Source: Herbiconiux gentiana
GTDB taxonomy: Bacteria; Actinomycetota; Actinomycetes; Actinomycetales; Microbacteriaceae
Length of the DNA stretch: 64,000 nucleotides
Direction: 5' to 3'
Assembly: GCF_024978135.1 (NCBI RefSeq)
Contig: NZ_JANTEZ010000010.1
Span: 1-64,000, forward strand
The notes below the pieces were generated by a model. The model was given only the letters and a program-made list of their open reading frames with translations, searched no databases and had not been told where the DNA came from. Every line of letters begins with the position of its first letter. The first letter of the stretch is position 1. Positions 138-30,008 of the stretch are shown piece after piece. A program made the position numbers and the translations under genes.

Positions 138-191
138 TGGAAAGCGCTTTCCAGGTAGTTCGACTCTGCCAGACGGGTCCGGCGTTGTCCA
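138..191 (-). promoter_or_regulatory. LacI-type operator and probable promoter of the Gfo/Idh gene
   Basis: A perfect 16-bp palindrome, TGGAAAGCGCTTTCCA, occupies 138-153 on the leader of the oxidoreductase starting at 108. It is the best copy of the operator that recurs through the first 30 kb. A possible promoter precedes it on the minus strand: TGGACA (191-186), 17 nt, CAGAGT (168-163). This puts the operator over the expected transcription start, as at the other regulon promoters. The operator is clear; the promoter hexamers are weak. Confidence 0.7.
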
Positions 192-209
192 GGGGTAGTG
201 GGTGGGGTG

Positions 210-1244
210 TCAGCCCGTCACCGGCGTCCCGGCCGCCACCGCGTTGTGCAGGCGGTCGATGTCGAGCCCCAGCCGTGACGGGCTGGCGATGTTCGTCAGC
301 AGCACGAACGAGACGCCGAGCTCCGGATAGATCCAGAACTCCGTGCCCGCCCAGCCGCCGTGCCCGTAGGTGCGCTGCTCGAGCAGCCCGGGCGCGGCGA
401 AGCGCAGGTTCCAGCCGAGTCCCCAGTCCTGGCCGCGCTCGGCCGGGTAGGGCGCGAGCCGAGGCAGGCCCGTGGTCTGCGGTCGCAGCATGGCGTCGAC
501 GGTCGACGAATGCACGACCCGCCGCCCGCCCGCACCCGCACCACCACCAGCAGCACCACCAGCGCCATCCGCCAGCAGCGCCGACCCCAGCACGAGCAGA
601 TCCTCGGCGGTCGCGTACAGCCCCGCCCCCGGATGCGCGAGCCTCTGCAGCGCCTGATAGTCCAGCCCCTGCTCGGCCGCGTCGAACACCGGATGCGGAT
701 CGCACCCCGCGTCGAACGTCAGCCCGGGCATCCCGGCATCGGCGGCGAGCGCGTCGAGCTCGTGCTGCAGCGACTCCCCCGTGGCGTGCTCGACGAGTGC
801 CTGCACGCCGGCGAACGCGATGGACGAGTAGCGCGACACGGTTCCGGCGGCGAAGTCGGCGTCCGCGCCGAGCAGCGAGGCCTCGAGCCCGAGCGGCGTG
901 TGCAGCGGCGGTTCGGCGATGCCCGAGGTGTGGCTGAGCAGGTGACGCAGGCGCACCGTGTCGGAGCGGTCGGCCCCGAACGCCGGCCGAGCATCCTGAA
1001 GCGGGGTCTCGGGGGTGAGCAACCCCCGCTCGACGGCGCGCAGGGCGGTCAGCGCGACGATCGGCTTGGTGATCGAGAACAGCGGATAGTGGTCGCCCGT
1101 GCCCGCCACCCGCGACCCGCTCGCACCGAAGGCCTCGAGTTCGAGCACCCCGTTCGCGTCGGCGATGCCGAGCACGGCGGTCGGCAGGATGCCCTCGTCG
1201 ACCTGCCGCCGGGCCCAGCTCAGGGAATGCCCGTAGCCGCTCAT
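210..1244 (-). CDS. Serine hydrolase of the beta-lactamase/class C PBP fold
   Basis: The 344-residue protein shows the SxxK nucleophile motif as SITK at residues 57-60, an RYSS segment at the position of the usual YxN motif, and a C-terminal HGGWAGTEF corresponding to the HxG motif. No signal peptide is seen, so it is probably cytoplasmic. Family members act as esterases, peptidases or beta-lactamases. In this setting an esterase that removes acyl groups from imported pectin-derived oligosaccharides is plausible, but this is inference. Its ATG overlaps the TGA of the fucosidase by four bases, so it is translationally coupled as the last gene of the transporter operon. A GGAGAG-like run precedes the start. 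Confidence 0.85.
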   Translation of the reverse strand: MSGYGHSLSWARRQVDEGILPTAVLGIADANGVLELEAFGASGSRVAGTGDHYPLFSITKPIVALTALRAVERGLLTPETPLQDARPAFGADRSDTVRLRHLLSHTSGIAEPPLHTPLGLEASLLGADADFAAGTVSRYSSIAFAGVQALVEHATGESLQHELDALAADAGMPGLTFDAGCDPHPVFDAAEQGLDYQALQRLAHPGAGLYATAEDLLVLGSALLADGAGGAAGGGAGAGGRRVVHSSTVDAMLRPQTTGLPRLAPYPAERGQDWGLGWNLRFAAPGLLEQRTYGHGGWAGTEFWIYPELGVSFVLLTNIASPSRLGLDIDRLHNAVAAGTPVTG

Positions 1245-2479
1245 CGCGCCTCCTCGGGAAGGGCGAACACGCGCACCGGGCCGTCGGCGGCCGCGGTCGC
1301 TGCAGGGTCGTCGACCACCACGACGAGACCGTCCGCAGTGCGCCACGCCCGCCACCAGGGCTCCACCGCCGAGTCGGCACGGTCCGCTTCCGGCACCGTC
1401 ACGCGGATGCCCGCCCGCTCGACCATCGACCGCCCCACGGTCGCGGGCTTCACCTCGGCCAGCCATGGCGCCACCCCCTCGAGGGTGCGCCGCTGCACCT
1501 CCGGGATCTCGCCCGCCGCCGTCGGACCCACGTTCAGCAGCAGCCGCCCGCCTCGCGACACGACGTCGGCGTAGAGCCGGGCCAGCTCGCGCGGGCTCAA
1601 CGTCAACGACTCGTCCTCGACGGCGTTGTAGCCGAACGAGAAGCCGAGCCCGCGGCAGTGCTCCCAGCCGAGGTCGGTCTCGTTCGCGGTGCCGCTGTCG
1701 TACTCGCTGGTGCGGTAGTCGCCCACCGCGGCGCCCCACCGGTCGTTCACGATGCCCTCGGGGGCGGCAGCCCGGAAGCGCGCCAGCAGCTGCTCGATCG
1801 AGGTCGGCCCGGCCGTCTTGCCGGCGTCGGGCCAGTCGATGTCGTTCCAGAGCACCTCGGGCGCGTAGCGGTCGATGAGGTCGGCCACCTGGGCGAAGGC
1901 GTAGTCGTTGTAGTCGGCGCCCACGGGCCGGCGGTCGGCGAGCTGGTCGCTGGCGGTGAGCGGCGGATGCTCCGCGAACCCCCAGTCGAGACCCCCCGAG
2001 TAGTACACGCCGAACCGCATCCCGGCCTCGCGCACGGCACTCGCGAGCGGCCCGATCAGGTCGCGGCGGGGCCCCCGCGCCACCGTGCTGAGCTCCCCCG
2101 CACCCGGAGCGTCCCAGAGCGCGATGCCGTCGTGGTGCTTCGTGGTCGGCACGACGTAGTCGGCGCCGACCGAGGCGAACAGGCGCGCCCAGTCGGCGGG
2201 GTCGTAGCGCTCGGCCGTCCAGGCGTCGAGGAGGGCGGCGTAGGGAGCGCCCCCGTAGAGCTCGGCATGCCGCCGCGCGGCGGGCGAGCCCTCGATGCGG
2301 ATCGTGTTGGCGTACCACTCGGCGTAGGCGTTGTGGGCGAACCACTCCTCGTCGGGCACCGCTCCGAGAGCGCCGCTCGGCTCGGCCCAGGCCGGCACGG
2401 AGTAGGCGCCCCAGTGCACGAAGACGCCGAGCGTTGCGTCGCGGGCCCAGGCGGGCAGCGGGCGGGTGAGCACGCTCAT
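1241..2479 (-). CDS. GH29 alpha-L-fucosidase
   Basis: The 412-residue protein begins with the GH29 signature FVHWGAYSVPAW and contains DYVVPTTKHHDGIALW, both diagnostic of alpha-L-fucosidases. The segment VLWNDIDWPDAG matches the nucleophile region (WNDxxWP). There is no signal peptide, so the enzyme should act on oligosaccharides brought in by the adjacent ABC importer and release L-fucose or a related sugar. It is somewhat shorter than many GH29 enzymes and appears to lack an accessory C-terminal domain beyond a short beta segment. Start and stop overlap both neighbours by four bases (ATGA), showing tight operon organisation. Family assignment is secure; the natural substrate is not. Confidence 0.9.
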   Translation of the reverse strand: MSVLTRPLPAWARDATLGVFVHWGAYSVPAWAEPSGALGAVPDEEWFAHNAYAEWYANTIRIEGSPAARRHAELYGGAPYAALLDAWTAERYDPADWARLFASVGADYVVPTTKHHDGIALWDAPGAGELSTVARGPRRDLIGPLASAVREAGMRFGVYYSGGLDWGFAEHPPLTASDQLADRRPVGADYNDYAFAQVADLIDRYAPEVLWNDIDWPDAGKTAGPTSIEQLLARFRAAAPEGIVNDRWGAAVGDYRTSEYDSGTANETDLGWEHCRGLGFSFGYNAVEDESLTLSPRELARLYADVVSRGGRLLLNVGPTAAGEIPEVQRRTLEGVAPWLAEVKPATVGRSMVERAGIRVTVPEADRADSAVEPWWRAWRTADGLVVVVDDPAATAAADGPVRVFALPEEAR

Positions 2480-3204
2480 CGCGTCTCCTCCGGCCCCAGC
2501 ACGTCGTCGTCGCCGTCCCCGCGCCGCGGCCGCTCGGGGATCGCCACCAGCGCCAGCACGACGCAGCCGAGCGCCGGCACGGCGAGCGGCAGCAGCTGCC
2601 ACGTCACGACCACCGCGAAGGCCGCCGTGGCGACCGTGTAGCCCGCACCGGCCGGGTCGCCGCGCAGCGCCGACGGAACCGCGGTGAGGGCGGCGCGCCA
2701 GCCGGCATCCGTCGACCATCGACCGCTCGCGGTGAGCAGCACGAGCGCGACCCCGGCGAGCCCCACCCAGCCGACGAGGCCGACGAGCGGGCCACCGGGC
2801 AGTGCGCCGGAATTGGCCAGATCGATGTCGAGCACCAGCACGAGCACGAGCGCCGCCGCCCCGAGGGCCACCAGCACTCCCCCGAGCAGCGCGGCCCTGA
2901 ACTCGCTCCACGCGGTGCCGAACGTCGACTCCTCGGCCCGGAGGAAGCGGCGCATGTGCCCCGCACCCGCCACGAGGGCGGCCGGCAGCGTGACGATCGG
3001 CAGCGACACGAGCGTCACGAGGATGCCGACGGTCAGCACCTCCCCCAGCAGCGCGAAGCGGTTGCGGGCGCCAGGGAAGCGCGCGGGCGGAGCGTCGTCG
3101 CGGAGCGGACCGCTGCCCGATTCGGCGGCCCGGCGTGCGGCGCGATCGCCCTGCCGGAGCTGTCGGTCGGTGCGGCGGTGCTGCTGCCGGTCGGTCACGG
3201 TCAT
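2476..3204 (-). CDS. YesL/DUF624-like integral membrane protein
   Basis: This 242-residue protein has a hydrophilic, Arg-rich N-terminus of about 45 residues, followed by five or so hydrophobic segments, including the run GEVLTVGILVTLVSLPIVTL that is typical of YesL-type proteins found in sugar ABC transporter operons. In Bacillus subtilis yesL belongs to the rhamnogalacturonan cluster, which fits this locus. Its molecular role is unknown; an accessory function in sugar uptake is usually proposed from context. It starts one base inside the stop of the upstream permease (TGATG) and its own stop overlaps the fucosidase start, so it is co-translated with both. Confidence 0.75.
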   Translation of the reverse strand: MTVTDRQQHRRTDRQLRQGDRAARRAAESGSGPLRDDAPPARFPGARNRFALLGEVLTVGILVTLVSLPIVTLPAALVAGAGHMRRFLRAEESTFGTAWSEFRAALLGGVLVALGAAALVLVLVLDIDLANSGALPGGPLVGLVGWVGLAGVALVLLTASGRWSTDAGWRAALTAVPSALRGDPAGAGYTVATAAFAVVVTWQLLPLAVPALGCVVLALVAIPERPRRGDGDDDVLGPEETR

Positions 3205-4115
3205 CAGCCCTTGAGCCCCTGCGTGGCCACCCCGTCGACGAGGAAGCGCTGGAACACGATGAAGAAGATCAGGATCGGCAGGAGCGCGAGGAACGACACC
3301 GCGACCGTCGCCCCGTAGTCGGAGGTGCTGGTGGCGTCGTTGTAGAGGCGCAGCGCGATCGGCAGCGGGTACTTCTCGGGCGAATTCACGTAGAGCAGCG
3401 GGCCGAGGAAGTCGTTCCAGGTCCAGATGAACGCGAAGATCGCGCTCGTGATCAGGGCGGGCCTGATCAGCGGCAGGATGATCGAGAAGAAGATGCGCGT
3501 GTGCCCGGCGCCGTCGATGCGGGCCGCCTCGTCCATGTCGCGCGGGATGTTGCGGATGAACTGCACCATCAGGAAGACGAAGAACGCCTCGGTCGCGAGG
3601 AACTTGGGCAGGATCAGCGGCACGTAGGTGTCCACCAGCTCGAGCTTCTGGAACATGATGTACTGCGGGATGATGATGACGTGGAACGGCAGCAGCAGCG
3701 TTCCGATCATCGCCGCGAACAGCACGCCGACGCCCTTGAACTTGATGCGGGCGAAGGCGTAGGCCGCCAGCGCCGACGAGGCCAGGATGCCTACGACCGC
3801 GCTCACGGCGATCAGCAGCGAGTTGCCGAAGAACCGCCAGAGCGGCGTTCCGGCGATGCCGTCGAACACCTTGAGGTAGTTGTCGATCGTCGGGTTGTCG
3901 GGAATGAGGCCCGGGTTGGAGCCGAACTCGCTCGACGGCTTGAAGGTTGAGAAGACCAGCCAGACCAGCGGGTACAGGATGATCGCGGTGAGCGCGAGCA
4001 GCACGACGAACCAGATGACCGTGCTGACCGTCTTGCGCTTCGGGCGCCGACGCCTCGGCTGCGGCTCGAGCTGGCCCTCGAGGAAGGCGGCCCGGTCGAC
4101 TTCGATGGTGCTCAT
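3204..4115 (-). CDS. Carbohydrate ABC transporter permease, MalG type (CUT1)
   Basis: The protein has 303 residues with a basic cytoplasmic N-terminus and six predicted membrane spans. The EAA loop that contacts the ATPase is visible as EAARIDGAGHTRIFFSIILP, the hallmark of MalG-type CUT1 permeases. It forms the import channel together with the MalF-type partner encoded just upstream. The ATG overlaps the upstream TGA (ATGA at 4112-4115). No ATP-binding subunit is encoded nearby, so a shared MsiK/MsmX-like ATPase encoded elsewhere is likely to energise it. Confidence 0.93.
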   Translation of the reverse strand: MSTIEVDRAAFLEGQLEPQPRRRRPKRKTVSTVIWFVVLLALTAIILYPLVWLVFSTFKPSSEFGSNPGLIPDNPTIDNYLKVFDGIAGTPLWRFFGNSLLIAVSAVVGILASSALAAYAFARIKFKGVGVLFAAMIGTLLLPFHVIIIPQYIMFQKLELVDTYVPLILPKFLATEAFFVFLMVQFIRNIPRDMDEAARIDGAGHTRIFFSIILPLIRPALITSAIFAFIWTWNDFLGPLLYVNSPEKYPLPIALRLYNDATSTSDYGATVAVSFLALLPILIFFIVFQRFLVDGVATQGLKG

Positions 4116-5113
4116 TTGTTCTCTCCCGCGTAGTGGACCCACGACTTCGACGTGCGGAACAGGATGAAGGCGATGATCGCGACCACGATCACGAGCACCC
4201 AGGCCATCGCCGCGGCGTAGCCCATCTGCCCGTCGGCGAAGCCCCGCTTGTAGAGGTAGAGGGTGTAGAAGTTCGTCATGCCGGCGGGGCCGCCCGAGCC
4301 GTTCGAGATGATGTACGCCGAGGCGAACACCTGGAAGGCGTTGATGGTCTCCAGCAGCAGGTTGAAGAAGATCACGCTCGAGAGCATCGGGATGGTCACC
4401 GAGCGGAACTTGCGCACCGGGCCGGCGCCGTCGACCTCGGCGGCCTCGTAGAGCTCGCGGGGGATCTGCTTGAGACCGGCGAGGAAGATGACCATCGGGG
4501 CGCCGAACTGCCAGACCGCCAGCAGGATCATCATCGGGATGACGAGCGAGACGTTGCCGACCCAGCCGCCGATGTCGATGCCGAACAGACTCAGCGAGGA
4601 GTCGACCGGCCCATCGGTGGAGAACATCGCCCGCCACACAATGGCGACCGACACCGAGGCGCCGATCAGCGAGGGAGCGTAGAAGGAGGAGCGGAAGAAG
4701 CCGGTGCCGCGGTTGCGGTAGTTCAGCAGCATCGCGATGCCGAGGGCCGCGGCGAGCTTCACCGGGGTGCCGACGAGCACGTAGACCAGGGTGATCTGCA
4801 CGGACTGCAGGAACTGCGGGTCCTGCGTGAACATACGCACGTAGTTGTCGAAGCCGACGAACTTGGGGTCGGCGAACAGGTTGTACTTCGTGAACGAGAG
4901 GTACAGGGAGTAGATCATCGGCCCGAGCGTGAGGCCCAGGAAGCCGATCAGCCACGGCAGCAGGAAGGTGTAGCCCGCCACGTTCTCGCGGCGGTTCGCC
5001 CGTCGCCGGCCCGGCTTGGTCGCCGGGTTCTTCGTCCGGCCGCCGCCCTTGGCCGGGCTGCCGGCTGCGGTGCCGGTGGACTGCGACGAGGCAGCCTCTT
5101 TCGTGATCGTCAC
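4112..5113 (-). CDS. Carbohydrate ABC transporter permease, MalF type (CUT1)
   Basis: The 333-residue protein begins with about 45 hydrophilic residues followed by the first span (YTFLLPWLIGFLGLTLGPMI), a common start for CUT1 MalF-like permeases. The ATPase-docking EAA loop reads EAAEVDGAGPVRKFRSVTIP. I chose the GTG at 5113 because GGAG lies 7 nt upstream; a longer frame from 5155 lacks such a site. It pairs with the MalG-type permease whose start overlaps its stop, and with the lipoprotein encoded 70 bp upstream. Expected substrates are di- or oligosaccharides; the neighbouring enzymes point to pectic side-chain oligosaccharides. Confidence 0.93.
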   Translation of the reverse strand: MTITKEAASSQSTGTAAGSPAKGGGRTKNPATKPGRRRANRRENVAGYTFLLPWLIGFLGLTLGPMIYSLYLSFTKYNLFADPKFVGFDNYVRMFTQDPQFLQSVQITLVYVLVGTPVKLAAALGIAMLLNYRNRGTGFFRSSFYAPSLIGASVSVAIVWRAMFSTDGPVDSSLSLFGIDIGGWVGNVSLVIPMMILLAVWQFGAPMVIFLAGLKQIPRELYEAAEVDGAGPVRKFRSVTIPMLSSVIFFNLLLETINAFQVFASAYIISNGSGGPAGMTNFYTLYLYKRGFADGQMGYAAAMAWVLVIVVAIIAFILFRTSKSWVHYAGENK

Positions 5114-5183
5114 GCGATTTCTCCGATCCCTGTCACGCACTCCGGGCCCGGACACGAGGTCCGGGCCCGGAAGGCGTCGGTGG

Positions 5184-6494
5184 TCACTGGTTGAGGACGA
5201 CGTCCATCTCGTTGAAGAACTGGTCGACGGCCTCGTCGACCGTCAGGGTGCCGAAGCCGAGCTCCTGGCCGATCTGGCGGAACTTCTCCTCCAGCGTGCC
5301 GGCGCCGACGATCGGAACCGGGGGCGCGTCGCCGAGGCGGTCCTGGATGGACGCCTCGTAGTCGCGGATCTGGGCGTCGAGGCCGCCGAGGTCGGCGCCC
5401 TCGAGCTGCGTCTCGGAGGCGGGCAGACCGCGGTTGGTGCCGAAGATCGCTCCGACCTCGGGCGAGTTCACCAGGAAGTTCACGAGCGTCGCCGCGGCCT
5501 CGGGGTGATCGGTCTTCGACGAGATGGTGTGCAGCATGGAGGGCTTCAAGTACAGGTCCTTCGCGCCTTCCTTCGTCACCGGCGGGGCCACCAGGCCGAG
5601 CTCGGTGTAGCCGTCACCCAGGTTGCCCAGGTAGCCGGCACCGAAGTTGTCCCAGGTCAGCTCGCTCGCGGTCTGCGCGGCGTCGAAGCCCGACAGCGGG
5701 TAGATCTCCTCGAGACGCTGCTGCGGGATCGTGTAGGCGGGGTCGCGCACCTCGGCGCCCTGCTCCCAGAACTCGGCGAGACGCGCCTTGTCGAAGCCGG
5801 GCTCGCCGTCCTCGCTGAACAGCTGCTTGCCCTCGGCCCGGAGCTGGATCTCGAAGTTCTGGATGCGGGCGGTCCAGTCGGTGCCGCCCGAGATGCCCTG
5901 GGCGCCGCCGGCGGTGGTGACCTGCTTCATCCAGTCGGCGTAGTCGTCCCAGCTGCCGCCGCCCTCGTAGCCGGCGACGCCGACCTGCTCGAGGAGCTTC
6001 GGGTTGGTGTAGAGGCCCCAGGCGTTGGTGGAGGTCGCGATGCCGGTGGTGGTGCCGTCGACGACCCCGATGCCGAGGATGTTCTCGGCGATGCCGTCGG
6101 TCTCGATCGTGCTGCCGAGGTAGGGGTCGAGGTCGAGCAGCAGGCCGTTCTCGGAGTACTGGCGAAGGTAGGAGTAGTCGAACTGCATCACGTCGGGCAG
6201 GCCACCGCCGGCCGCCTCGGTCTGGCGCTTCTCCCAGAACTCGGGGAAGCCGAGGAAGGAGCTGTTCACCGTGATGTTCGGGTACTCCTCGTTGAAGGCG
6301 GCGAAGGCCTGGTCGTAGAGACCGGCGCGCACGTCGTTGCCCCAGAACGCGAAGTTGAGGGTGACCTTCTCGGCGGGGTCGTAGGTCGCGGCGGGCTCGG
6401 AGCCTCCGCCGGCGCACCCCGTGAGGGCGAGAGCGGCGGTGACGCCGATCGCTGCTGCGGCGACCGCCGTTCGGCGCTTGCGAATTTCGAACAT
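5184..6494 (-). CDS. Sugar-binding lipoprotein of a CUT1 ABC importer
   Basis: The 436-residue precursor has a basic start, a hydrophobic core and the lipobox LTGC, with the lipidated Cys at residue 27, so the mature protein is anchored to the outer face of the membrane. The remainder has the extracellular solute-binding family 1 pattern (FAFWGNDV near the N-terminus, repeated Trp and Tyr, and PEAAATLVNFLVNSPEV near the C-terminal third). It captures sugars for the two downstream permeases. A strong ribosome-binding site, AGGAGG, lies 6 nt before the ATG. It is the first gene of an operon running down to 210 and is controlled by the operator at 6543-6556. Confidence 0.95.
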   Translation of the reverse strand: MFEIRKRRTAVAAAAIGVTAALALTGCAGGGSEPAATYDPAEKVTLNFAFWGNDVRAGLYDQAFAAFNEEYPNITVNSSFLGFPEFWEKRQTEAAGGGLPDVMQFDYSYLRQYSENGLLLDLDPYLGSTIETDGIAENILGIGVVDGTTTGIATSTNAWGLYTNPKLLEQVGVAGYEGGGSWDDYADWMKQVTTAGGAQGISGGTDWTARIQNFEIQLRAEGKQLFSEDGEPGFDKARLAEFWEQGAEVRDPAYTIPQQRLEEIYPLSGFDAAQTASELTWDNFGAGYLGNLGDGYTELGLVAPPVTKEGAKDLYLKPSMLHTISSKTDHPEAAATLVNFLVNSPEVGAIFGTNRGLPASETQLEGADLGGLDAQIRDYEASIQDRLGDAPPVPIVGAGTLEEKFRQIGQELGFGTLTVDEAVDQFFNEMDVVLNQ

Positions 6495-6542: not shown

Positions 6543-6588
6543 AGAAAGCGCTTTCCGCCACTGTAAACGAACTGCCCCCGCCGGTCAA
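6543..6588 (-). promoter_or_regulatory. Promoter and LacI-type operator of the sugar importer operon
   Basis: On the minus strand a clear promoter reads TTGACC (6588-6583), a 17-nt spacer, and TACAGT (6565-6560). Three bases later begins the near-perfect palindrome AGAAAGCGCTTTCC (plus-strand 6543-6556), overlapping the expected start of transcription near 6553. This geometry fits simple repression by a LacI-family protein released by a pathway sugar. The leader to the binding-protein ATG is about 60 nt. Confidence 0.87.
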
Positions 6589-8504: not shown

Positions 8505-9452
8505 TCACGGACGGTCCGCCACGACGAGGGCTCCGGCGTGCACGGCGAGGGGAGCCGCCTGGAGCCAGGTGATGCGGGACGCCGGGGTGGGGGCGGCGTC
8601 GAGCTCGGTGCCCGTCCAGTGGGGGTGGGTGAAGTAGTAGAGGGTGGCCGTGTCGCCGTCGACCACGACGTCGCCATGCCGGCCGACGGGTGCCGCGCGT
8701 TCGCCGAGGAGCACGGCGTCGGGGCCGCCCTGGCGCGTCCACGCGACCGCGTCGGTCGAGCGGTAGGCGGCGAATCCGCGCCACTCGTCGACGAGCATCC
8801 ACCACCACCCGCCGAGCTCGAAGACGTTGGGGCCCTCGTGCGGGCGGCCGCCGATGGCCTCGCCCTCGACGCGCCACTCGTGCTCGTCGCCGAGGTCGGG
8901 GCTCGAGGCGACCCAGGTGGTCGAGTCGCGGGCCTCGTCCTTGTACCAGAGTCGCCAGAGGCCGTCGGGGCAGCGGGCGACGCAGGCGTCGATGACGCGG
9001 TCCGACGAGAGCGGCAGGGGGCGGATGCGCGTCCAGCGCTCGAGGTCGGGGCTCCGGTACTCGACGATCCGCCGCGCGTGCCCCTCCCAGCGGTCGGGGA
9101 TGCCCTCGATGACCGAGAGGTACATGCGGTACTGCGTGCCGTCGTGGATCACCTCCGGCGCCCAGTGCGTGTCGGGGCCGGCGAACGGGTCGCTCGGGCG
9201 GGGCCCTCGAGCGGGCTCGGCGTCGAGACCCTCCACGATGCCCGCCGCGCGCCAGCTGCGCCCGTCGTCCGAGCGCGCGACGCCGATGCGGCTGCCGTGC
9301 ACCCACGTCACTCCGGGGCCGGGGTCGGCCGGGCGGCGGCGGGTGTAGAACATCCACCACTCGCCCGTCTCGTGGTGGCGGATGACCGTGGGATCGGCCG
9401 CCCCGTCGGTGTCGGGATCGCGGAACAGCGGCTCGAGGAATACCCCGCTCAC
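8505..9452 (-). CDS. GH43-like five-bladed beta-propeller glycosidase
   Basis: The 315-residue protein starts SGVFLEPLFRDPDTDGAADP, with the Asp-Pro that opens GH43-type propellers, followed by repeated blades containing WWMFYT, YRMYLS, LWRLWYKD and WWWMLVDEW. Candidate catalytic acids are Asp in DPTVI, Glu in APEVIHDG and Glu in HEGPNVFE. No signal peptide is seen, so it is intracellular. GH43 and related clans remove arabinose, xylose or similar units; I cannot choose a substrate. The GTG start at 9452 overlaps the upstream TGA (GTGA), making it the last gene of the PmoA-Gfo/Idh-GH operon. GH117 or GH130-like assignment is an alternative. Confidence 0.8.
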   Translation of the reverse strand: MSGVFLEPLFRDPDTDGAADPTVIRHHETGEWWMFYTRRRPADPGPGVTWVHGSRIGVARSDDGRSWRAAGIVEGLDAEPARGPRPSDPFAGPDTHWAPEVIHDGTQYRMYLSVIEGIPDRWEGHARRIVEYRSPDLERWTRIRPLPLSSDRVIDACVARCPDGLWRLWYKDEARDSTTWVASSPDLGDEHEWRVEGEAIGGRPHEGPNVFELGGWWWMLVDEWRGFAAYRSTDAVAWTRQGGPDAVLLGERAAPVGRHGDVVVDGDTATLYYFTHPHWTGTELDAAPTPASRITWLQAAPLAVHAGALVVADRP

Positions 9453-21579: not shown

Positions 21580-21587
21580 CGGCGACG

Positions 21588-22308: not shown

Positions 22309-23637
22309 TCAGCCCAGCAGCCGCAGCTCCGGGATGCGCACCGGCTCCCCCGTCTCAAGCGACAGGTTCCCCGCGATCCCCACCGAGATCGCCTTGACCC
22401 CGTCGGCGAACCCGGCGACCCGGCCGAGCGGCTCGTCGACCGCCACCCGGTGGAAGAGGTGGTCGAGCAGGTACGCGTCCCCACCCCCGTGTCCACCGAT
22501 GCCCTCGGGAATGGGCACGACCCGCGCGCTCTCCCAGTGCCGCTGCACGACGAGCCGCTCCGACTCGGGCCGCACGTCGCCGGCCGACTCCGACTGCCCC
22601 GGGTTGGCGCTCGGGTCGACGACCACTCGCCCGTCCTCCCCGATCAGCACCGCCCCGCGCTCGACCACCTCGAGCTCCGCCCGGCCCTCGGTGCCGCTGA
22701 CCGAGACCCGGTAGCCCTCCCAGGGCGAGTGCGCGTTCAGCGAGTAGCTCAGGGTGGCGCCGGAGTCGTAGTCGACCAGGGCGGCGAGGTTGTCCTCGAT
22801 CGTGATGCCCGGGTCGAAGACGTCGCGGTCGCGCAGGTACCCGTCGTGGTGCTCGTTGTCGAGGTAGAGCTCCTTCATGCGCGCATCCGCCCCGAGGTCG
22901 AGCGCGAAGGGGTCGCCCGTGACGCCGGTTCCGCGCGACGGCCGCGCCCCGAGCCCTCGCGCCTCGGCGTTCGCCGCCCCGTAGAAGCGCAGCCCGCCGC
23001 TCGCGAACACCCGCACCGGGGTGGCCGCGATCCACCAGTTCACCAGGTCGAAGTGGTGCGAGGCCTTGTGCACGAAGAGCCCCCCGCTGTTGCGCTTGTC
23101 GCGGTGCCAGCGGCGGAAGTAGTCGGCCCCGTGCACCGTGTCGAGCGCCCACTCGAAGTGCACCGCGGTCACCTGTCCGATCGTGCCGTCGGCGATCACC
23201 GAGCGCAGGGCGCTGTTGCGCGGCGAATAGCGGTAGTTGAAGGTCGTGATGACCTCCCGGCCGGTCGACTCGATCGCGGCCGCGATGCGGCGCACGCTCT
23301 CGACGTCGATCGTCAGCGGCTTCTCGACCACCACGTCGGCCCCCGCCTCGAGGGCGCGCACCACGAAGTCGGCGTGGGTGAAGTCGGGGGTGGTGATGAT
23401 CACCCGGTCGATGCGCTCGTCCACGATCATCCGCTCGAGCTGGTCGGGCGTGTAGCGCTTCGGTGCCCGGATGCCCGCCGCCGTCACCTGGCGCTCGTAG
23501 ACGTCGAGGCGGCCGGGGTTGACGTCGCTCCAGGCCACCAGTTCGGCGACGTCGGCGTGCACGCCGGTCAGCCCGCGCACGTAGAGGTCGGCCCGTCCGC
23601 CCGTGCCGATGAGTGCGTACCGTTCGGTCTGGGCCAT
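22309..23637 (-). CDS. Gfo/Idh/MocA-family oxidoreductase
   Basis: The 442-residue protein begins AQTERYALIGTGGRADLYVR (Rossmann loop GTGGRA), has VVVEKPLTID with the family EKP motif, and the substrate-domain segment GGLFVHKASHHFDLVNWW with catalytic-type Lys/His. It is longer than average, as in some bacterial enzymes acting on glycosides. AGGA lies 9 nt before the ATG. Its promoter carries two copies of the regulon operator, 56 bp apart, and is divergent from a LacI gene. The protein is therefore probably controlled by that regulator and takes part in the same plant-sugar metabolism; the substrate is unknown. Confidence 0.9.
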   Translation of the reverse strand: MAQTERYALIGTGGRADLYVRGLTGVHADVAELVAWSDVNPGRLDVYERQVTAAGIRAPKRYTPDQLERMIVDERIDRVIITTPDFTHADFVVRALEAGADVVVEKPLTIDVESVRRIAAAIESTGREVITTFNYRYSPRNSALRSVIADGTIGQVTAVHFEWALDTVHGADYFRRWHRDKRNSGGLFVHKASHHFDLVNWWIAATPVRVFASGGLRFYGAANAEARGLGARPSRGTGVTGDPFALDLGADARMKELYLDNEHHDGYLRDRDVFDPGITIEDNLAALVDYDSGATLSYSLNAHSPWEGYRVSVSGTEGRAELEVVERGAVLIGEDGRVVVDPSANPGQSESAGDVRPESERLVVQRHWESARVVPIPEGIGGHGGGDAYLLDHLFHRVAVDEPLGRVAGFADGVKAISVGIAGNLSLETGEPVRIPELRLLG

Positions 23638-23680: not shown

Positions 23681-23782
23681 AGAAAGCGCTTGCCGAGCGT
23701 CCAGCGGTCGACCCGGTCGAGAGCACGGATGCAGCGAGAAAGCGCTATCCCAAGTTGTACCAGGGGCGCGCTGAGAGGGCAA
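23681..23782 (-). promoter_or_regulatory. Promoter with tandem LacI-type operators
   Basis: On the minus strand TTGCCC (23782-23777), a 17-nt spacer and TACAAC (23759-23754) form a promoter for the oxidoreductase starting at 23637. Operator 1, AGAAAGCGCTATCC (plus 23737-23750), starts 3 nt after the -10; operator 2, AGAAAGCGCTTGCC (23681-23694), lies exactly 56 bp further downstream in the leader. Two spaced sites would permit looping or a roadblock. The divergent lacI gene starts at 23870, so it may be autoregulated from the same region. Confidence 0.75.
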
Positions 23783-23869: not shown

Positions 23870-24979
23870 ATGACCGGGAACACCCCCGACGGCCCCACCG
23901 CACCCTCGCTCGACGCGGGCTCGCGGCGCAGTTCGCCCGCGACTCTCGAAGACGTCGCCCGCGCGGCCGGAGTCTCGCTCGCGACCGCCTCCCGCTCGCT
24001 GAACGGCAGCAGCCGCACGGTGAACGCCGCCTACCGCAGCAAGGTGCTCGACGCCGCGGCGCGGCTGAACTACTCCCCCAACCTCTCGGCCCAGGCGGTC
24101 GCGCGGGGCAGCACCATGACCGTCGCCCTCGTGGTCGCCGACATCACCGACCCCTACTTCTCGTCGATCGCGGCCGGGGTGGTCGCCGAGGCCGACCAGG
24201 GGCGGCTGATCGTGACGATGGCCGCGACCGAGCGCGACTCCGAGCGGGAGCTCGAGATCGTGCGCACCCTGCGCGGACAGCGACCGAAGGTGATCATTCT
24301 GGCCGGGTCGCGGCGCGAGGGCGACCCCTCGGAGGAGGCGCTCCGTCGCGAACTCGAGGACTACGAGCGGGCCGGCGGCCGCGTGGTGCTGATCAGCCGG
24401 AACGAGCTCGGTTTCCGCACGGTGCAGATCGACAACGCCTCCGGGGCCGCCGACCTCGCGACCGCACTGGTCGGGCTCGGCTACCGCCGCTTCTCGGTGC
24501 TCACCGGAAACCGCGAGCTGAAGACGGCCGCCGACCGGCTCGACGGGTTCACGTCGGGGCTGGAGCGGGCGGGCATCCGCGTCGAGGCCGACCGGGTGGT
24601 GCAGAGCGCCTTCACCCGGGACGGCGGCTACGAGGGCATGCGCTCGTTGATCGCCGCGGGCGTGCAGGCCGACGAGGTGGTGTTCGCGGTGAACGACGTG
24701 ATGGCGGTCGGCGCCCTGTCGGCGCTGCGGGATGCGGGCCTCACCCCCGGCGCCGATGTGGCGGTCGCGGGGTTCGACGACATCCCCACGGTGCAGGACG
24801 TGTGGCCGACGCTGACGACGGTGAACGTGCCGCTCGTCGAGGTGGGGCGGGCCGCGCTGCGGCTGGCGCTCGAGGAGACGGACGCCTCCGTGTCGGCCGA
24901 CTCGGACGCGTCCACCGCGCCCGGGTCTCCGGTGGCGACCTCGGTGGTGGTGCGGGACAGCACGCCGCGCCGCGCGTAG
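23870..24979 (+). CDS. LacI-family transcriptional regulator
   Basis: The 369-residue protein has an HTH (TLEDVARAAGVSLATASRSL) at residues 25-44 and a sugar-binding effector domain (TVALVVADITDPYFSSIAAG, and VAVAGFDDIPTVQDVWPTLT near the C-terminus). GGAGG lies about 5 nt before the ATG, which fixes the start. It faces a Gfo/Idh gene whose promoter bears two operators, so it likely regulates it and possibly the wider regulon alongside the LacI at 12937. The effector is unknown; a pectin breakdown product is a reasonable guess. The last 35 residues are Ser/Ala/Asp-rich. Confidence 0.93.
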   Translation: MTGNTPDGPTAPSLDAGSRRSSPATLEDVARAAGVSLATASRSLNGSSRTVNAAYRSKVLDAAARLNYSPNLSAQAVARGSTMTVALVVADITDPYFSSIAAGVVAEADQGRLIVTMAATERDSERELEIVRTLRGQRPKVIILAGSRREGDPSEEALRRELEDYERAGGRVVLISRNELGFRTVQIDNASGAADLATALVGLGYRRFSVLTGNRELKTAADRLDGFTSGLERAGIRVEADRVVQSAFTRDGGYEGMRSLIAAGVQADEVVFAVNDVMAVGALSALRDAGLTPGADVAVAGFDDIPTVQDVWPTLTTVNVPLVEVGRAALRLALEETDASVSADSDASTAPGSPVATSVVVRDSTPRRA

Positions 24980-25064: not shown

Positions 25065-26840
25065 CTACGCTGACTGCACCCGGTGCAGCTCCGCGTACCG
25101 GCCGCCCGCCGCGAGCAGCTGCTCGTGCGACCCCACCTCCACGATGCGCCCGTGCTCGAGCACCACGATCCGATCGGCCGAGCGGATGGTCGACAGCCGG
25201 TGCGCCACCACCAGCGTCGTGCGCCCGCGCATCAGCCGGGCGAGCGCCTCCTTCACGGCAGCCTCCGACTCGGGGTCGAGCGCGCTCGTCGCCTCGTCGA
25301 GCAGCAGCACGCGCGGATCGCGCACCAGCGCCCGCGCGATCGCGATGCGCTGCCGCTGCCCGCCGGAGAGCCGGGCGCCGCGCTCACCGACGATGGTGTC
25401 CCAGCCCGCCGGCTGTGAGGCCACGATCTCGAGCGCGTTCGCGTCGCGCAGCGCCGCGAGTACTGTCTCGTCAGGCACCTTCCCCAGCCCGTAGGCCACG
25501 TTCTCCCGGATCGACCCCTCGAACAGCACCGACTCCTGGGGCACCACCGACACGAACCGCCGGAAGGATCGCAGGTCGAGCGTCTCCATGTCGACCCCGT
25601 CGAGCAGCACCCGCCCCGACCCCGGCCGAAGGAATCCGAGCACGAGGTTCAGCATCGTCGACTTGCCCGACCCGCTCGACCCGACGAACGCGATGGTCTC
25701 CCCCGGATGCACGTGCAGTGCGATCCCGCTCAGCGAATCGGTCTCGGCGCCGGGGTACCGGAACGACACGTAGCGCAGCTCGAGCTCGCCCGCGACCGTC
25801 TCGACCGGGGCCTTGCCCTCGTTCTGCTCGAGGTCGGGATCCTGCAGCACCTCCGCCATCGATCGGATCGACTCGGTGCCGCGCGCCACGATCGGCAGCA
25901 GCATCAGGAGGTTCGTCATGCTGCTCGTCAGCAGCGCGAAGTACGAGCTCAGCAGCACCACCTGGCCGGCCGTGATCGGCAGCCAGCCGCTGATCGACAC
26001 CCACGCCGCGAGCACCAGGCAGCCCACCCCGAGCAGCTGCAGGCTCACCCACGACAGCGACGCGAACCGCCCGTTCAGCAGGTCGAGGCTGAACCCCGCG
26101 GTGCGCACACCTTCGGCGCCGTCGGCGACCCGGCGAACGGCGGTGCCCTCGACGCCGTGCGCCCGCGTGATCGGCATCAGGGTCGCCATCTCGCCGACCC
26201 GCGACGAGAAGTGCTCCATCTCGCGCCGGAACGTCTCGTTGCGCCGCGCCGAGCGCTTGCCCAGCACGTACCGCAGCATCACCGCGATCGGGATCGTGAG
26301 CGCGTAGACCGGCAGGAACGCCGGCACGTTGATCGCGGTCATCGTCACGGCGCCGGCGAGCACCATCACCGACGAGAGCAGCGGATGCGCGGTCTGCTGC
26401 AGCATCAGCTCGACGTTCTCGACGTCCCGCACCACCTTGGTCTGCACCACCGACGAGCTGGCCCGCGAGTGGAACCCGATCGACAGGTTCTGCAGACGCG
26501 ACGCGAGCCCGTTGCGCAGGTCGGCGCCGATCTGACGCACGGCGGTCATGAACAGCTTCGTGTACATCACGTGATTCGGATAGTTCTGCAGCAGCGCCGC
26601 GAGGGCGACCGCCGTCCAGATGGCCAGCGAGCTCACCGGGCCGCCGTCGACGACGATGTCGATGACCGCGCCGGTGATGACGGGCAGGAGCCAGAGCGGG
26701 ATGTCCTTCAGCACGAAGAAGAACACCGCGACGACGACCTTGCGGCGGTGCATCCCGAGCAGACGAAGCACGGTGCGGCCCGGATGCGCGCCGTCGACGA
26801 CACCCTCGATACCCTGACCGGTAAGCGCTTTCTTGCTCAT
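25065..26840 (-). CDS. ABC exporter, fused membrane and ATPase domains
   Basis: The 591-residue half-transporter has a six-span type I exporter domain (about residues 20-330) and a nucleotide-binding domain with Walker A GSSGSGKST, signature LSGGQRQR, Walker B VLLLDEAT and switch AHRLST. It should act as a homodimer exporting lipids, drugs or peptides; its substrate cannot be inferred. The ATG at 26840 is not preceded by a clear ribosome-binding site. It sits between the lacI gene and the rhamnogalacturonan lyase, but nothing ties it to sugar degradation, and the importer's missing ATPase is not this protein because it carries its own membrane domain. Confidence 0.92.
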   Translation of the reverse strand: MSKKALTGQGIEGVVDGAHPGRTVLRLLGMHRRKVVVAVFFFVLKDIPLWLLPVITGAVIDIVVDGGPVSSLAIWTAVALAALLQNYPNHVMYTKLFMTAVRQIGADLRNGLASRLQNLSIGFHSRASSSVVQTKVVRDVENVELMLQQTAHPLLSSVMVLAGAVTMTAINVPAFLPVYALTIPIAVMLRYVLGKRSARRNETFRREMEHFSSRVGEMATLMPITRAHGVEGTAVRRVADGAEGVRTAGFSLDLLNGRFASLSWVSLQLLGVGCLVLAAWVSISGWLPITAGQVVLLSSYFALLTSSMTNLLMLLPIVARGTESIRSMAEVLQDPDLEQNEGKAPVETVAGELELRYVSFRYPGAETDSLSGIALHVHPGETIAFVGSSGSGKSTMLNLVLGFLRPGSGRVLLDGVDMETLDLRSFRRFVSVVPQESVLFEGSIRENVAYGLGKVPDETVLAALRDANALEIVASQPAGWDTIVGERGARLSGGQRQRIAIARALVRDPRVLLLDEATSALDPESEAAVKEALARLMRGRTTLVVAHRLSTIRSADRIVVLEHGRIVEVGSHEQLLAAGGRYAELHRVQSA

Positions 26841-26982: not shown

Positions 26983-29937
26983 CTACTTGCAGCTCAGCGC
27001 CGCGTACGGCACCGAGTAGCTCGAGTGGTACCCGACGCCGTCGACGAAGGAGTACGCCGTGACGCTCGCCGTGCCGGCCGCGATCGCCGCCGCGCCCGAG
27101 CCCACCAGCGAGTAGGCCGCCTTGCCTGCCGCCACCGCCGTGACCTTCTTGTCGGTGCCGAGCGCCGAAAGCCGCACGTCGGCCGGACGCCCGGAGTCGT
27201 TGTAGGCGTACACGGCCACGTGCGCGGTGCCGTTCACGCACTGCGACTTGGCGTTCGCGGCGAGGCGCACCGGCTGGGATCCGGTCACCACCGCGGTGGC
27301 GGACGGCGCCGAGGCCGCCGACGGGCCGGCGTCGCCGACCGCCACGACCTTGGCCGTGTACGAGCCGGCCGGAACCGTGGCCAGGGCGAAGGAGGCTCGC
27401 AGAGCATCCGCCCCCACCGTGGTCTCGAGCGGATCGCCGCCGCCCACCGGGGTCAGCGTGACCCGGTAGCCCGTGATCGCAGAGGTGCCGGGCGAGGCCG
27501 GTGCCTTCCAGGTCACGTTCACGCCGGCGCTGTCGACGCCGATGCCCGGAGCTGCGACCGGCAGGGGCGGGGCCGCGAGTGGCACGTCGGCGAACGACAT
27601 GTCGGAGGCGAGGTAGAACGAGGTGTAGCTCGGCTGGTTGTAGGTGGTGTTCTGCCGGGCGACCTCGACCCGGTACTGCGGGTCGTGCATCAGCGTGTAG
27701 AGCTTGTGCGTCGTCACCTCGGTGCTGACGTGGATGTTCAGCGCACTCGAGTCAGCCGATCGCAGGACGAGCTCCTCGCGCCAGTCGCCGAGCACGTCGG
27801 CCACGAGGTTCGCGGTGCCCTTGGTGCCGTTGTTCGTTCGCTCACCGGTGCCGGTGAGGAGGCGTCCGCGGGTCCAGTCCTCGATCGTCGGGGTCACGTC
27901 GCCGGCCCCGTTCAGGATCTGCGTCGTGAGGTCGCCCGACCAGCGGATCGACTGGTTCGTGCCCGGGATCGCCGCGCCGAGGCTCTCGCCCGACGCCGAG
28001 CGGAGGCGGGTGGCCCAGGTCTCGAGGCCCGGCGTGTTCGGGTCGATGTCGCCGACCATGCCGCGTCCGGTGTCCTTGCCGCTGTACTCGCCGTAGATGA
28101 GCTCGCCGGTGGCGGCGTCGCGCAGCGCGTAGCCGAGGGGGGCGTAGGTCGCTCCCTCGTGCACGGTGAAGATCTCGAGCCCGGGTCGCGCCGGGTCGAT
28201 GTCGGCCACGTGCATGGCGTCGCCGTGGCCGAGCTTGGCCTCGGTGCCCGGCGCCGCACTCCCCTCGGGCAACGTGTCGTAGGAGCTGTAGAGCAGGCTG
28301 CCGTCGTCGTCGATCGTGGCCGAGCCGTAGACGATCTCCTGCCGGCCGTCGCCGTCGACGTCCGCCGCGCTGAGCGAGTGGAAGCCCTGCGTGGTCAGCC
28401 GGCCCCACTCCTCGCTCGTGCCCTCGCGGCCGTGCGGCGAGTCGTTGAAGGGGTTCGTCATCGGGGTGAAGCCGCTGTCGACGAGGAAGCGCTGCGAGAG
28501 GTTCTCGCCGTCCCAGTCCCAGGCCGCGACGGTCGTGCGGGTGTAGTAGCCGCGCGCGAACACGGCAGAGGGGTGCTCGCCGTCGAGATACGCGACCCCC
28601 GCCAGGAAGCGGTCCACCCGGTTGCCGGGCTCGATCCGCGCCATGGCGTAGTCGCCCCAGAGCAAGCCGTCGTCGGTGCGACCGGGCTCGTACGGGATGG
28701 TCTGCAGCTCGGCACCGGTGGCTCCGTCGAAGACCGTGAGGTACTCGGGGCCATCGAGGATGAAGCCCTCGAAGTTGCGCAGCGCGTTGCGGGCGCTGCG
28801 GGAGGGGGCGTAGACGTCGAGGAAGTGGTCGACGAGCTCACGCGCATCCGCCTCACTGAGCGGGTACTGGTGCGTGACCGGGATGCCGAACGCCTCTTCG
28901 AGCGTCGCCGGCCAGGTGCCGTCGACGACCTCGGGGCGGGTCGACCAGCCCCGGAAGACCTCGACGAGGTGGTCGGCGTAGTCGGCCGCGCTGAGGCGGT
29001 AGTCGTCGTCGTTGCTGACGCCGGCGGCGATGTCGGCCTCGGGGAGGGTGACGAAGGCGTCGTTCGTGACTTCTCCGTCGGCGCCGAAGCCCGTCGACTT
29101 CGTGCCGGGGGCGGTCTTCGTCATGAGCTCGGCGCGGCCGTCGCCGTCGAAGTCGTAGACCATGAACTGCGTGTAGTGGGCACCGGCGCGGATGTTCACA
29201 CCCAGGTCGATGCGGTTGAGAAGGGTGCCGTCGAGCTCGTAGGTGTCGAGGAAGACGGTGCCCGTGTAGCCGACCTGGGAGACGTCCTTGGAATTGGAAG
29301 GCTCCCATTTCACGATGAACTCGTAGGCGCCGTCGCCGTCGACGTCGGCGACCGAGGTGTCGCTGGCCGAGTAGGTGTAGGCCTCGTCGGCGGGGGTGAC
29401 GCCGTCGGCGGGTTTGGTGAGCGGGATGCTCGCGACGGCGTCGCCCGCCTTGCCGGCCTCTCCGGCGTCTCGGCTCGTCAGCGTGGTGGCCTTCTCGCTC
29501 TGGGGGCCCTCGTGGCCGCCGAGCACTGGGGCGACGGTGTAGGCGCTGGCCGCGGTTCCGTCGGGGTCGCGGAGGTTGGTGCTGTCGGTGACGTCGGCGA
29601 TCTTGGTGCCGTCGCGGTAGACGGCGAAGTCGGCGCCGGTGAGGCCGGTCTCGCTCGCGCCGTAGGCTTCGCTCTTCAGGAGGCGCCAGCTGAGGAAGAC
29701 GCCGTCGGTCGTGGGGGCGGCGACGAGGCCGCGGTCGAGCGCCTCGAGGCGCGGGGTGGCGAGGGCTGTGGATGCTCCGACCTCCGCTCCCGCTCCTGTC
29801 TCGGCCGCGGCGGTAGCCGGCGTCGCGGCGGCGGCCGGCGTCGCGGCGAACGCGGCCGGCGCGGCGGTGAGTGCGAGCGCGGCGGCGGTCACTCCGACCA
29901 GGCCCGCTCGGCTCGCGCGTTTGAATCGATTCATCAT
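26983..29937 (-). CDS. Secreted PL11 rhamnogalacturonan lyase with Fn3 domain
   Basis: The 984-residue precursor has a Sec signal peptide (basic MMNRFKRASR, hydrophobic core, AFAATP cleavage region). The catalytic part shows the PL11 pattern: GVFLSWRLL near the N-terminus, and calcium-binding loops DVDGDGAYEF, DFDGDGRAEL and DVDGDGRQEI of the eight-bladed propeller. It should cleave the rhamnose-galacturonate backbone of rhamnogalacturonan I by beta-elimination outside the cell. A fibronectin type III module (GVNVTWKAPASPGTSAITGY) and a further C-terminal domain of about 90 residues, perhaps for substrate binding, follow. Start codon is one of two adjacent ATGs (29937 or 29934). It is the only clearly secreted depolymerase here and has its own operator-bearing promoter. 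Confidence 0.92.
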   Translation of the reverse strand: MMNRFKRASRAGLVGVTAAALALTAAPAAFAATPAAAATPATAAAETGAGAEVGASTALATPRLEALDRGLVAAPTTDGVFLSWRLLKSEAYGASETGLTGADFAVYRDGTKIADVTDSTNLRDPDGTAASAYTVAPVLGGHEGPQSEKATTLTSRDAGEAGKAGDAVASIPLTKPADGVTPADEAYTYSASDTSVADVDGDGAYEFIVKWEPSNSKDVSQVGYTGTVFLDTYELDGTLLNRIDLGVNIRAGAHYTQFMVYDFDGDGRAELMTKTAPGTKSTGFGADGEVTNDAFVTLPEADIAAGVSNDDDYRLSAADYADHLVEVFRGWSTRPEVVDGTWPATLEEAFGIPVTHQYPLSEADARELVDHFLDVYAPSRSARNALRNFEGFILDGPEYLTVFDGATGAELQTIPYEPGRTDDGLLWGDYAMARIEPGNRVDRFLAGVAYLDGEHPSAVFARGYYTRTTVAAWDWDGENLSQRFLVDSGFTPMTNPFNDSPHGREGTSEEWGRLTTQGFHSLSAADVDGDGRQEIVYGSATIDDDGSLLYSSYDTLPEGSAAPGTEAKLGHGDAMHVADIDPARPGLEIFTVHEGATYAPLGYALRDAATGELIYGEYSGKDTGRGMVGDIDPNTPGLETWATRLRSASGESLGAAIPGTNQSIRWSGDLTTQILNGAGDVTPTIEDWTRGRLLTGTGERTNNGTKGTANLVADVLGDWREELVLRSADSSALNIHVSTEVTTHKLYTLMHDPQYRVEVARQNTTYNQPSYTSFYLASDMSFADVPLAAPPLPVAAPGIGVDSAGVNVTWKAPASPGTSAITGYRVTLTPVGGGDPLETTVGADALRASFALATVPAGSYTAKVVAVGDAGPSAASAPSATAVVTGSQPVRLAANAKSQCVNGTAHVAVYAYNDSGRPADVRLSALGTDKKVTAVAAGKAAYSLVGSGAAAIAAGTASVTAYSFVDGVGYHSSYSVPYAALSCK

Positions 29938-29952
29938 TGAACCCCAATCACC

Positions 29953-30008
29953 GGAAAGCCCTTTCCCGATTGCGGGCCAAACTACCACCCCCGTTCGGGG
30001 GAGGTCAA
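29953..30008 (-). promoter_or_regulatory. Promoter and operator of the rhamnogalacturonan lyase gene
   Basis: On the minus strand TTGACC (30008-30003), 18 nt and TAGTTT (29984-29979) form the promoter. The operator GGAAAGCCCTTTCC (plus 29953-29966), 13 of 14 to the regulon consensus, covers the region 13-26 nt after the -10. A second inverted repeat of six-base arms, CCCCCG and CGGGGG (29988-30001), sits exactly in the spacer and could bind another protein. Confidence 0.8.

Follow-up and report, generated by a model that had tools for sequence, protein, structure and literature searches.

RhgR is a regulator of the AraC type. According to excerpts of one study (PMC3870299), it governs rhamnogalacturonan use in Bacillales, whereas RhiR, a LacI-family protein of Rhizobiales and Erwinia, and the LacI-type RhaR of Actinomycetales are predicted to act on rhamnogalacturonide or rhamnose genes, with 20-bp palindromes as their sites. 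Excerpts of another (PMC4052901) describe LacI/GalR operators as even palindromes with a CG centre, place more than 75% of LacI-family sites 140 to 30 bp before a start codon and fewer than 1% in coding regions, and report a case of cross-recognition, in which Escherichia coli GntR recognises IdnR sites. Here we compare these systems with a locus for the use of pectic sugars in Herbiconiux gentiana, contained in positions 1 to 64,000 of contig NZ_JANTEZ010000010.1 (assembly GCF_024978135.1); this whole stretch is called the window.

We consider it likely that two paralogous LacI-type repressors, LacI1 and LacI2, use distinct operator types in this locus and meet at a shared node of hybrid operators. 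The initial annotation of the window had proposed that LacI-type operators coordinate the cleavage, uptake and oxidation of pectic sugars. The analysis below supports such operators, closely grouped in one locus and connecting uronate oxidation and Gfo/Idh enzymes with an importer of the YesO kind and a rhamnogalacturonan lyase.

Operator sites in the window and the genome

The eight sites first reported are indeed located at 139, 6543, 11631, 14084, 14150, 23681, 23737 and 29953, and match a 14-bp consensus at 14, 13, 13, 11, 12, 12, 12 and 13 of 14 positions, as claimed. The same scan yields a ninth site that was absent from that list, at 26820 (12 of 14). With up to three mismatches allowed, the window thus holds 9 matches, compared with 1.70 expected (standard deviation 1.28), and none of 100 shuffles reached 9. 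Eight of the nine sites have a central CG, as is usual for even palindromic operators of the LacI family; the site at 29953 has CC, which is conserved in two other Herbiconiux genomes (G003 and G012). Seven sites lie roughly 31 to 100 bp upstream of the nearest chosen start codon and 29953 about 16 bp upstream, while 26820 is intragenic.

In the whole genome (3,854,319 bases in 17 contigs, 99.84% complete), the consensus is matched with up to two mismatches at 13 places, 8 of them in the window, and a reversed-pattern control at 6. Exact matches to RGAAAGCGSTWDCC occur at eight places, namely 139, 6543, 11631, 14150, 23681, 23737, 26820 and position 138 of contig C5, so that seven fall within the first 27 kb of the window. 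When two mismatches are allowed, this pattern is not enriched in the genome (103 + 97 hits, against 125 + 129 for the control), and weak matches therefore carry no meaning; good matches alone count. Whole-genome pattern scans did not turn up the hundreds of equally good sites against which the initial annotation had cautioned. Outside the window, the only consensus matches at this limit are C5:138, which sits before a second copy of the Gfo/Idh gene GfoA, C5:637, C1:339992, which falls within a called open reading frame (ORF), C11:37594 and C16:21924. The C5:637 match precedes a gene for a 1422-aa protein and, together with C5:8139, resembles a different motif, GGATAGCGYTGTCC, which perhaps belongs to LacI genes of C5 itself. 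Some of the gene lists come from a rough GC-based caller.

Relative to the window, 345 of 350 site bases (98.6%, 26820 included) are identical in G003, Herbiconiux sp. VKM Ac-1786 (G012) and H. daphne (G002), compared with 711 of 1150 bases (62%, 26820 excluded) in the flanking 25 bases on each side. This divergence of flanks is not universal, as those at 139 and 29953 are also nearly identical in G003 and G012. We compared 16 Herbiconiux genomes. Four of them encode a LacI1 ortholog of at least 75% identity, and these have four or five sites with no more than one mismatch; two such sites are present in G007, one in G001 and none in the other ten. G001 and G007 carry a perfect site before GfoA and a LacI2-like gene close by. 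In G011 and G015, whose LacI1 relatives are 53% identical, the sites are variants in which the outer base is A or T. Shuffles, the exact-match scan, conservation and the matrix ranks given below rule out a chance origin of the sites.

Two operator types and two LacI-family proteins

LacI1 and LacI2 both contain the LacI helix-turn-helix (PF00356) and a periplasmic-binding-protein-like domain (PF13377), each above its cut-off. The two proteins share about 34-37% identity and have different recognition helices. As judged from sequence, the main difference between their predicted operators is one base per half, the seventh counted from the centre, which is A or G. LacI1 appears to go with GAGAAAnCGnTTTCTC (A type) and the uronate-oxidation operon, and LacI2 with GGGaaaGCGCttTCCC (G type) and the importer, Gfo/Idh, PmoA and lyase units. 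Below, A/A and G/G denote sites with like halves, and hybrids have one half of each type.

Relatives of LacI2, in 30 family loci that include the window's own, are surrounded by 55 sites at up to three mismatches, versus 4 for a reversed control, and by eye most resemble GGGAAAGCGCTTTCCC or GGGTAARCGCTTTCCC. For LacI1, we examined 50 of 80 loci of relatives, the 30 most distant being left out; 29 of the 50 have an upstream site (a 12-base core with up to two mismatches), by eye mostly GAGAAAnCGnTTTCTC. The operator in the LacI1/udh region of 30 Agromyces loci is A/A in 23, hybrid in 6 and G/G in none, with one not found, and it is also A/A in H. daphne. Downstream of LacI1, toward PmoA, a further site was found in 11 of these 30 loci, and every one of the 11 is G/G; in four loci annotated further (L096, L141, L197 and L285), a site of this kind directly precedes PmoA. 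G249 and G017, in which LacI1 was not found, have LacI2, and G/G sites precede their GfoB/PmoA units and their GfoA or importer units. The importer operator is G/G in both Agromyces loci seen. In the window, the corresponding site at 6543 has an A half, but without the outer G that LacI1 sites have, and is therefore read as a LacI2 site.

Scans of the whole H. gentiana genome separate the two types. An A-type 16-mer taken from relatives, with up to two mismatches, is found only at 14083, 14149 and 23736 (control, 0), all of them in the control regions of LacI1/udh and GfoC/LacI2. With up to one mismatch, a G-type 14-mer is found at 139, 6543, 11631, 26820, 29953 and C5:138 (control, 0), and at these limits the two sets are disjoint. 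We also ranked all positions of the 64-kb window with A and G matrices built solely from other genomes. The nine sites take ranks 1 to 9 with the G matrix, the lowest scoring 11.6 bits and the next position 2.5, and ranks 1 to 8 and 10 with the A matrix.

A single seven-promoter LacI regulon, as the initial annotation proposed, would call for one operator type and one regulator at every promoter. We rejected it as the main account because the operator type appears to track two different LacI proteins across genomes. The accompanying suggestion that one or both LacI proteins coordinate the units survives in so far as both are implicated, each with targets of its own and with a shared node, but not as one joint regulon.

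In some Agromyces (L283 and L284), a second LacI1-like gene (about 59%) occurs with its own importer and a PmoA-like gene. One genome has A/A sites near this gene; another has G/G there, along with a variant.

Hybrid operators at the GfoC/LacI2 node

The intergenic region between the divergent genes GfoC and LacI2 contains a pair of operators spaced by 56 bp, both of them A/G hybrids in the window. We surveyed the LacI2 promoter in 66 genomes, which comprise 30 of 66 family genomes with LacI2, 35 of 45 Agromyces with LacI2 (four of them shared with those 30) and five Herbiconiux in addition to the window's own genome. A strict hybrid is present in 31 of the 32 genomes that have a close LacI1 (at least 64% identity), versus 4 of the 34 that do not; some site was found at this promoter in 24 of the latter. 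Absence of LacI1 was called from searches with E-value limits, one of which scored up to 33 candidates per genome. The most telling control is G249, which has GfoC (76%) and LacI2 divergent as in the window but a G/G site, and in which no LacI1 was found.

Both operators are seen in 22 of the 31 genomes that have a close LacI1 and GfoC beside LacI2, with a spacing of 56 bp in 20 and 57 bp in 2; the pair is not shown in the other 9. Among genomes with LacI1 and GfoC, operator 2 reads A/G in all four Herbiconiux but G/A in 23 of the 27 Agromyces, which indicates that the halves have been swapped and the hybrid state kept. No genome with close LacI1 and GfoC has one A/A and one G/G site alone.

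Hybrids are also found in the LacI1/udh region of the window's clade (G000, G003 and G012), where two of them, at 14084 and 14150, are 66 bp apart; the uronate promoter would have turned hybrid in this clade. The same region of an Agromyces (G093) has two sites 67 bp apart. We do not claim looping between paired operators, as 56 and 66 bp are non-integer numbers of turns at 10.5 bp.

A probable operator within a coding region

The ninth site corresponds to codons 3 to 7 of an ATP-binding cassette (ABC) transporter gene (ATG AGC AAG AAA GCG CTT ACC) and is identical in G003 and G012. In Agromyces the residues encoded there differ (RQALS, GQTLS and WQAFS), but the DNA is still GGCAAGCGCTTTCC, GGCAAACGCTTTCC or GGCAAGCGTTTTCC. 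Among six Agromyces with the start of the ABC gene in view, the match is good in five (G251, G343, G337, G358 and G314) and poorer, with three mismatches, in G345; all six begin at the eighth base after an ATG that was picked by eye. No matching ABC gene was present in the stretches fetched from ten other Agromyces (G093, G309, G308, G354, G350, G352, G344, G310, G353 and G334), H. daphne and G249. Our first view of 26820 as a coding coincidence was dropped given its persistence in Agromyces despite the residue changes. The site looks like an operator inside the reading frame, and its placement would make sense if the transcript were leaderless or if the true start codon lay further downstream.

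Proposed mechanism

Promoters were scored over 12 consensus bases for the best pair of -35 and -10 elements, where the -10 may end within 20 nucleotides of the operator. All seven units reach at least 7 of 12 (with 23737 used for the second Gfo/Idh gene), as do 7.6% of random window positions. Other arrangements score lower: 4 for 23681 toward GfoC, 4 and 6 for the two sites toward LacI2, and 5 for 26820. The annotation's pattern of a recognisable -10 followed by the operator after 1 to 12 nucleotides is visible by eye in six units (TACAGT, TACATT, TACAGT, TAGGCT, TACAAC and TAGTTT), and no clear -10 is visible at the first Gfo/Idh gene. Operator 2 begins about 3 nucleotides past a promoter directed at GfoC, TTGCCC-17-TACAAC. 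Most operators are thus near the transcription start, where a dimer on the DNA should prevent initiation until a sugar binds the repressor and frees the operator, as in plain repression.

LacI2 is predicted to repress the outer part of the system, that is, the PL11 lyase, the YesO-type importer, a Gfo/Idh-DUF993-isomerase unit, the PmoA-Gfo/Idh-GH43 unit and LacI2 itself, and probably also the ABC transporter, through the operator within its reading frame. LacI1 would repress the inner part, namely galacturonate oxidation toward 2-oxoglutarate and its own LacI1-M24 operon. The effector of LacI1 is most likely an acid of the galacturonate pathway, and that of LacI2 most likely an imported product of rhamnogalacturonan. 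Since the operators at GfoC/LacI2 have halves of both types, either repressor may act there. In the simplest logic, GfoC would be on only when both repressors are released, so that two signals would be needed. A mixed LacI1-LacI2 dimer at this node could also be accommodated, but is not required.

Several findings weigh against two repressors with distinct operators, an account built on sequence comparison. The site at 23681 was missed by both the A and the G patterns and scores modestly with both matrices, 14084 also has weak matrix scores, and the A matrix places a position that is not a site, 22219, ninth, above 11631. No upstream site was found in 21 of the 50 loci of LacI1 relatives, mostly in Microbacterium with the helix VSLSTVSR. 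At the GfoC/LacI2 node, one member of the operator pair is A/A instead of hybrid in 8 of 22 cases, and G206, an Agromyces, has LacI1 and GfoC, yet a G/G site. Strict hybrids occur in two genomes of one genus in which LacI1 was not found (G180 and G271) and in two with only a distant LacI1 (G051 and G188), and three genomes lacking LacI1 (G350, G320 and G327) carry a G/A site without the outer G. LacI2 may therefore tolerate one A half alone. The association of hybrids with LacI1 has a Fisher p of 2e-13, which is not a true probability, as related genomes overstate independence, and 4 of the 32 genomes with close LacI1 had been chosen for having it.

This tolerance is the starting point of an explanation that we regard as unlikely, though deserving attention, in which one LacI protein, most likely LacI2, binds all nine sites, A and G at the variable position represent tolerated degeneracy, and LacI1 uses few or none of the sites. 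It would account for the G matrix alone scoring every window site far above background, and for the G/A sites at LacI2 promoters of the five genomes just listed in which LacI1 was not found. It would not predict that LacI1-linked operators are A/A in most Agromyces loci and in H. daphne and A-type in many distant LacI1 relatives, that, where a site was found at all, LacI2 loci of genomes lacking LacI1 are usually G/G, or that the A pattern picks out the LacI1/udh and GfoC/LacI2 regions. The genome contains 30 LacI matches at E <= 1e-20, and a third paralog, neither LacI1 nor LacI2, might bind some of the sites. However, the sites adjoin the LacI1 and LacI2 genes and follow these two proteins from genus to genus, which makes ownership by another paralog highly improbable.

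The swapped halves of operator 2, and the absence of an A/A plus G/G pair alone, could also mean that a LacI1-LacI2 heterodimer reads the hybrids with one subunit per half. Excerpts of PMC4693257 describe engineered heterodimers of GalR mutants on hybrid operators. The low identity of LacI1 and LacI2 argues against this idea, no natural LacI-family heterodimer was among the literature matches listed, and two homodimers binding in turn fit the data equally well; we find the heterodimer very doubtful. We give similarly little credence to a mixed dimer, or at least a two-repressor gate kept by selection, as the meaning of the hybrid operators. The argument for such a gate is that operator 2 retains one A half and one G half, and in most cases the spacing of 56 bp, although the two halves have exchanged places between Herbiconiux and Agromyces. 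If a mixed dimer did form, this would be a natural hybrid operator occupied by a single dimer of two diverged LacI paralogs. Two repressors with separate operator types and a shared node remain our preferred explanation.

Genes and operators of the locus

Table 1. Features of the pectin-sugar locus in the window.
Feature	Position	Strand	Remarks
GfoA, Gfo/Idh oxidoreductase, 5' end	1..108	-	Truncated by contig end
Operator GGAAAGCGCTTTCC before GfoA	139..152	.	Pure G-type (LacI2, predicted); identical perfect site in G001, G002, G003, G007, G012
Importer operon	210..6494	-	Putative operon, from gene spacing; Pfam
Beta-lactamase-fold protein	210-1244	-	Pfam
GH29	1241-2479	-	Pfam
DUF624 (presumably YesL-type)	2476-3204	-	Pfam
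Two permeases	4112-5155, 3204-4112	-	Pfam
Solute-binding protein, YesO-like	5184-6494	-	PDB match to YesO, E=2.8e-40
Operator AGAAAGCGCTTTCC before importer	6543..6556	.	Taken as LacI2 site
PmoA operon: DUF6807 (PmoA) 10576-11589, Gfo/Idh GfoB 9449-10579, GH43 8505-9452	8505..11589	-	Pfam
Operator GGAAAGCGCTATCC before PmoA	11631..11644	.	Pure G-type (LacI2, predicted)
M24-fold protein	11663..12940	-	Pfam; overlaps LacI1 end
LacI1, LacI-family regulator	12937..14052	-	Pfam; recognition helix VSQASVSR
Operator GGAAATCGCTTACT before LacI1-M24	14084..14097	.	One half G-type, other A-type
Operator AGAAAGCGGTTTCC before uronate operon	14150..14163	.	Hybrid; top A-type (LacI1) score of the window
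Uronate-oxidation operon	14212..19083	+	Pfam and curated family matches
Epimerase-family dehydrogenase	14212-15336	+	Weak PDB matches include uronate dehydrogenase
5-dehydro-4-deoxyglucarate dehydratase	15333-16370	+	PRK03620, 382 bits (cut-off 278)
Enolase-superfamily dehydratase	16367-17554	+	Best curated match talarate/galactarate dehydratase, below cut-off; superfamily matches
Aldehyde dehydrogenase	17551-19083	+	Family match
GfoC, Gfo/Idh oxidoreductase, divergent from LacI2	22309..23637	-	Pfam on longer ORF 22309-23817
Hybrid operator 1 (A/G), GfoC-proximal	23681..23694	.	Consensus scan
Hybrid operator 2 (A/G)	23737..23750	.	56 bp from operator 1
LacI2, LacI-family regulator	23870..24979	+	Pfam; recognition helix VSLATASR
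ABC transporter, membrane and ATPase domains	25065..26840	-	Pfam
Ninth operator, AGAAAGCGCTTACC on - strand	26820..26833	.	Inside codons 3-7 of ABC-transporter gene
Rhamnogalacturonan lyase, PL11, YesW-like	26983..29937	-	Pfam; PDB match to YesW, E=3.9e-158
Operator GGAAAGCCCTTTCC before lyase	29953..29966	.	G-type (LacI2, predicted), CC centre

The locus combines a PL11 lyase with a YesO-type ABC importer (Table 1), one of the marks of yes-type rhamnogalacturonan utilisation loci; another is an unsaturated rhamnogalacturonyl hydrolase (GH105). The lyase is probably secreted, a point taken over from the initial annotation. No GH105 protein was identified among the window proteins scanned by Pfam, a scan that covered none from 32307 on and was not followed by a wider search. 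In relatives, the GfoA unit consists of GfoA, a DUF993 protein and an isomerase-like protein of the AP_endonuc_2 family; this trio is present in L042, L044, L046, L194 and L196, in most cases with a perfect G/G site. It is a candidate for an oxidise-isomerise-cleave route for a pectin sugar.

The oxidative uronate pathway proceeds through uronate dehydrogenase, galactaro-lactone cycloisomerase or galactarate dehydratase, KdgD and 2-oxoglutarate semialdehyde dehydrogenase. The operon at 14212-19083 has all four matching families and may oxidise galacturonate to 2-oxoglutarate. Against this assignment, the gene names come from family matches, and only the dehydratase at 15333 clears a curated cut-off; even this KdgD-like protein is below the threshold of the narrower TIGR03249 KdgD equivalog (279, with 374 required). 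A gene of the M24 fold is next to LacI1 in most annotated Agromyces loci, as it is here.

Positions 1-154 of the window align at 93% with positions 1-153 of contig C5 (L014), and the far part of GfoA is found at the end of contig C16 and in C13. GfoA thus appears to occur twice in the genome, and the assembly probably broke at this duplicated Gfo/Idh gene. L014 is a carbohydrate locus of lower GC3 (G+C content at third codon positions) with its own LacI genes, GH36, GH127 and importers. Its 1422-aa protein has F5/8 domains and a weak hint of an alginate lyase, with a GGATAGCGCTGTCC site in front of the gene. Between this gene and the second GfoA, at about 200-600 on the minus strand, a degenerate stretch similar to the central part of a LacI gene was noticed by eye.

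Comparison with known systems

Repressors that are paralogs in one cell usually must avoid each other's sites, and 30 LacI matches share this genome. LacI1 and LacI2 seem to be insulated by about one base per half-site, yet joined at one promoter. Herbiconiux and Agromyces, in which LacI1 is present or absent and operators are pure or hybrid, therefore offer a natural experiment on regulatory insulation and the evolution of cross-talk. The findings also suggest that DUF6807 (PmoA), DUF993 and several Gfo/Idh enzymes take part in the use of pectin sugars.

LacI regulons of rhamnose and rhamnogalacturonan genes are already known, as is cross-recognition between GntR and IdnR. Two features appear to be new, namely the intragenic operator and the conservation, at a promoter common to two repressors, of a hybrid operator whose occurrence goes with the second repressor; the open-access matches listed included no paper on a pectin regulon of Herbiconiux or Agromyces or on natural hybrid operators of LacI paralogs, which is a weak negative.

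Like the Bacillus subtilis yes/RhgR system, the locus has a PL11 lyase resembling YesW, a binding protein resembling YesO, two permeases and a DUF624 protein. Unlike that system, it has two LacI repressors and several Gfo/Idh enzymes, and no GH105 among the proteins scanned. Its uronate operon contains the four families of the oxidative pathway, although the first, third and fourth enzymes are assigned to superfamily only. With RhiR and RhaR it shares predicted LacI regulators of rhamnogalacturonide or rhamnose genes, whereas the excerpts of PMC3870299 do not mention a second LacI protein that shares operators. The GntR/IdnR system of E. coli, as described in the excerpts of PMC4052901, is similar in that paralogous LacI-family repressors of linked sugar-acid pathways show cross-recognition. 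There, however, a close paralog reads the sites of the other, whereas here the operator types differ and hybrids are found at the shared promoter.

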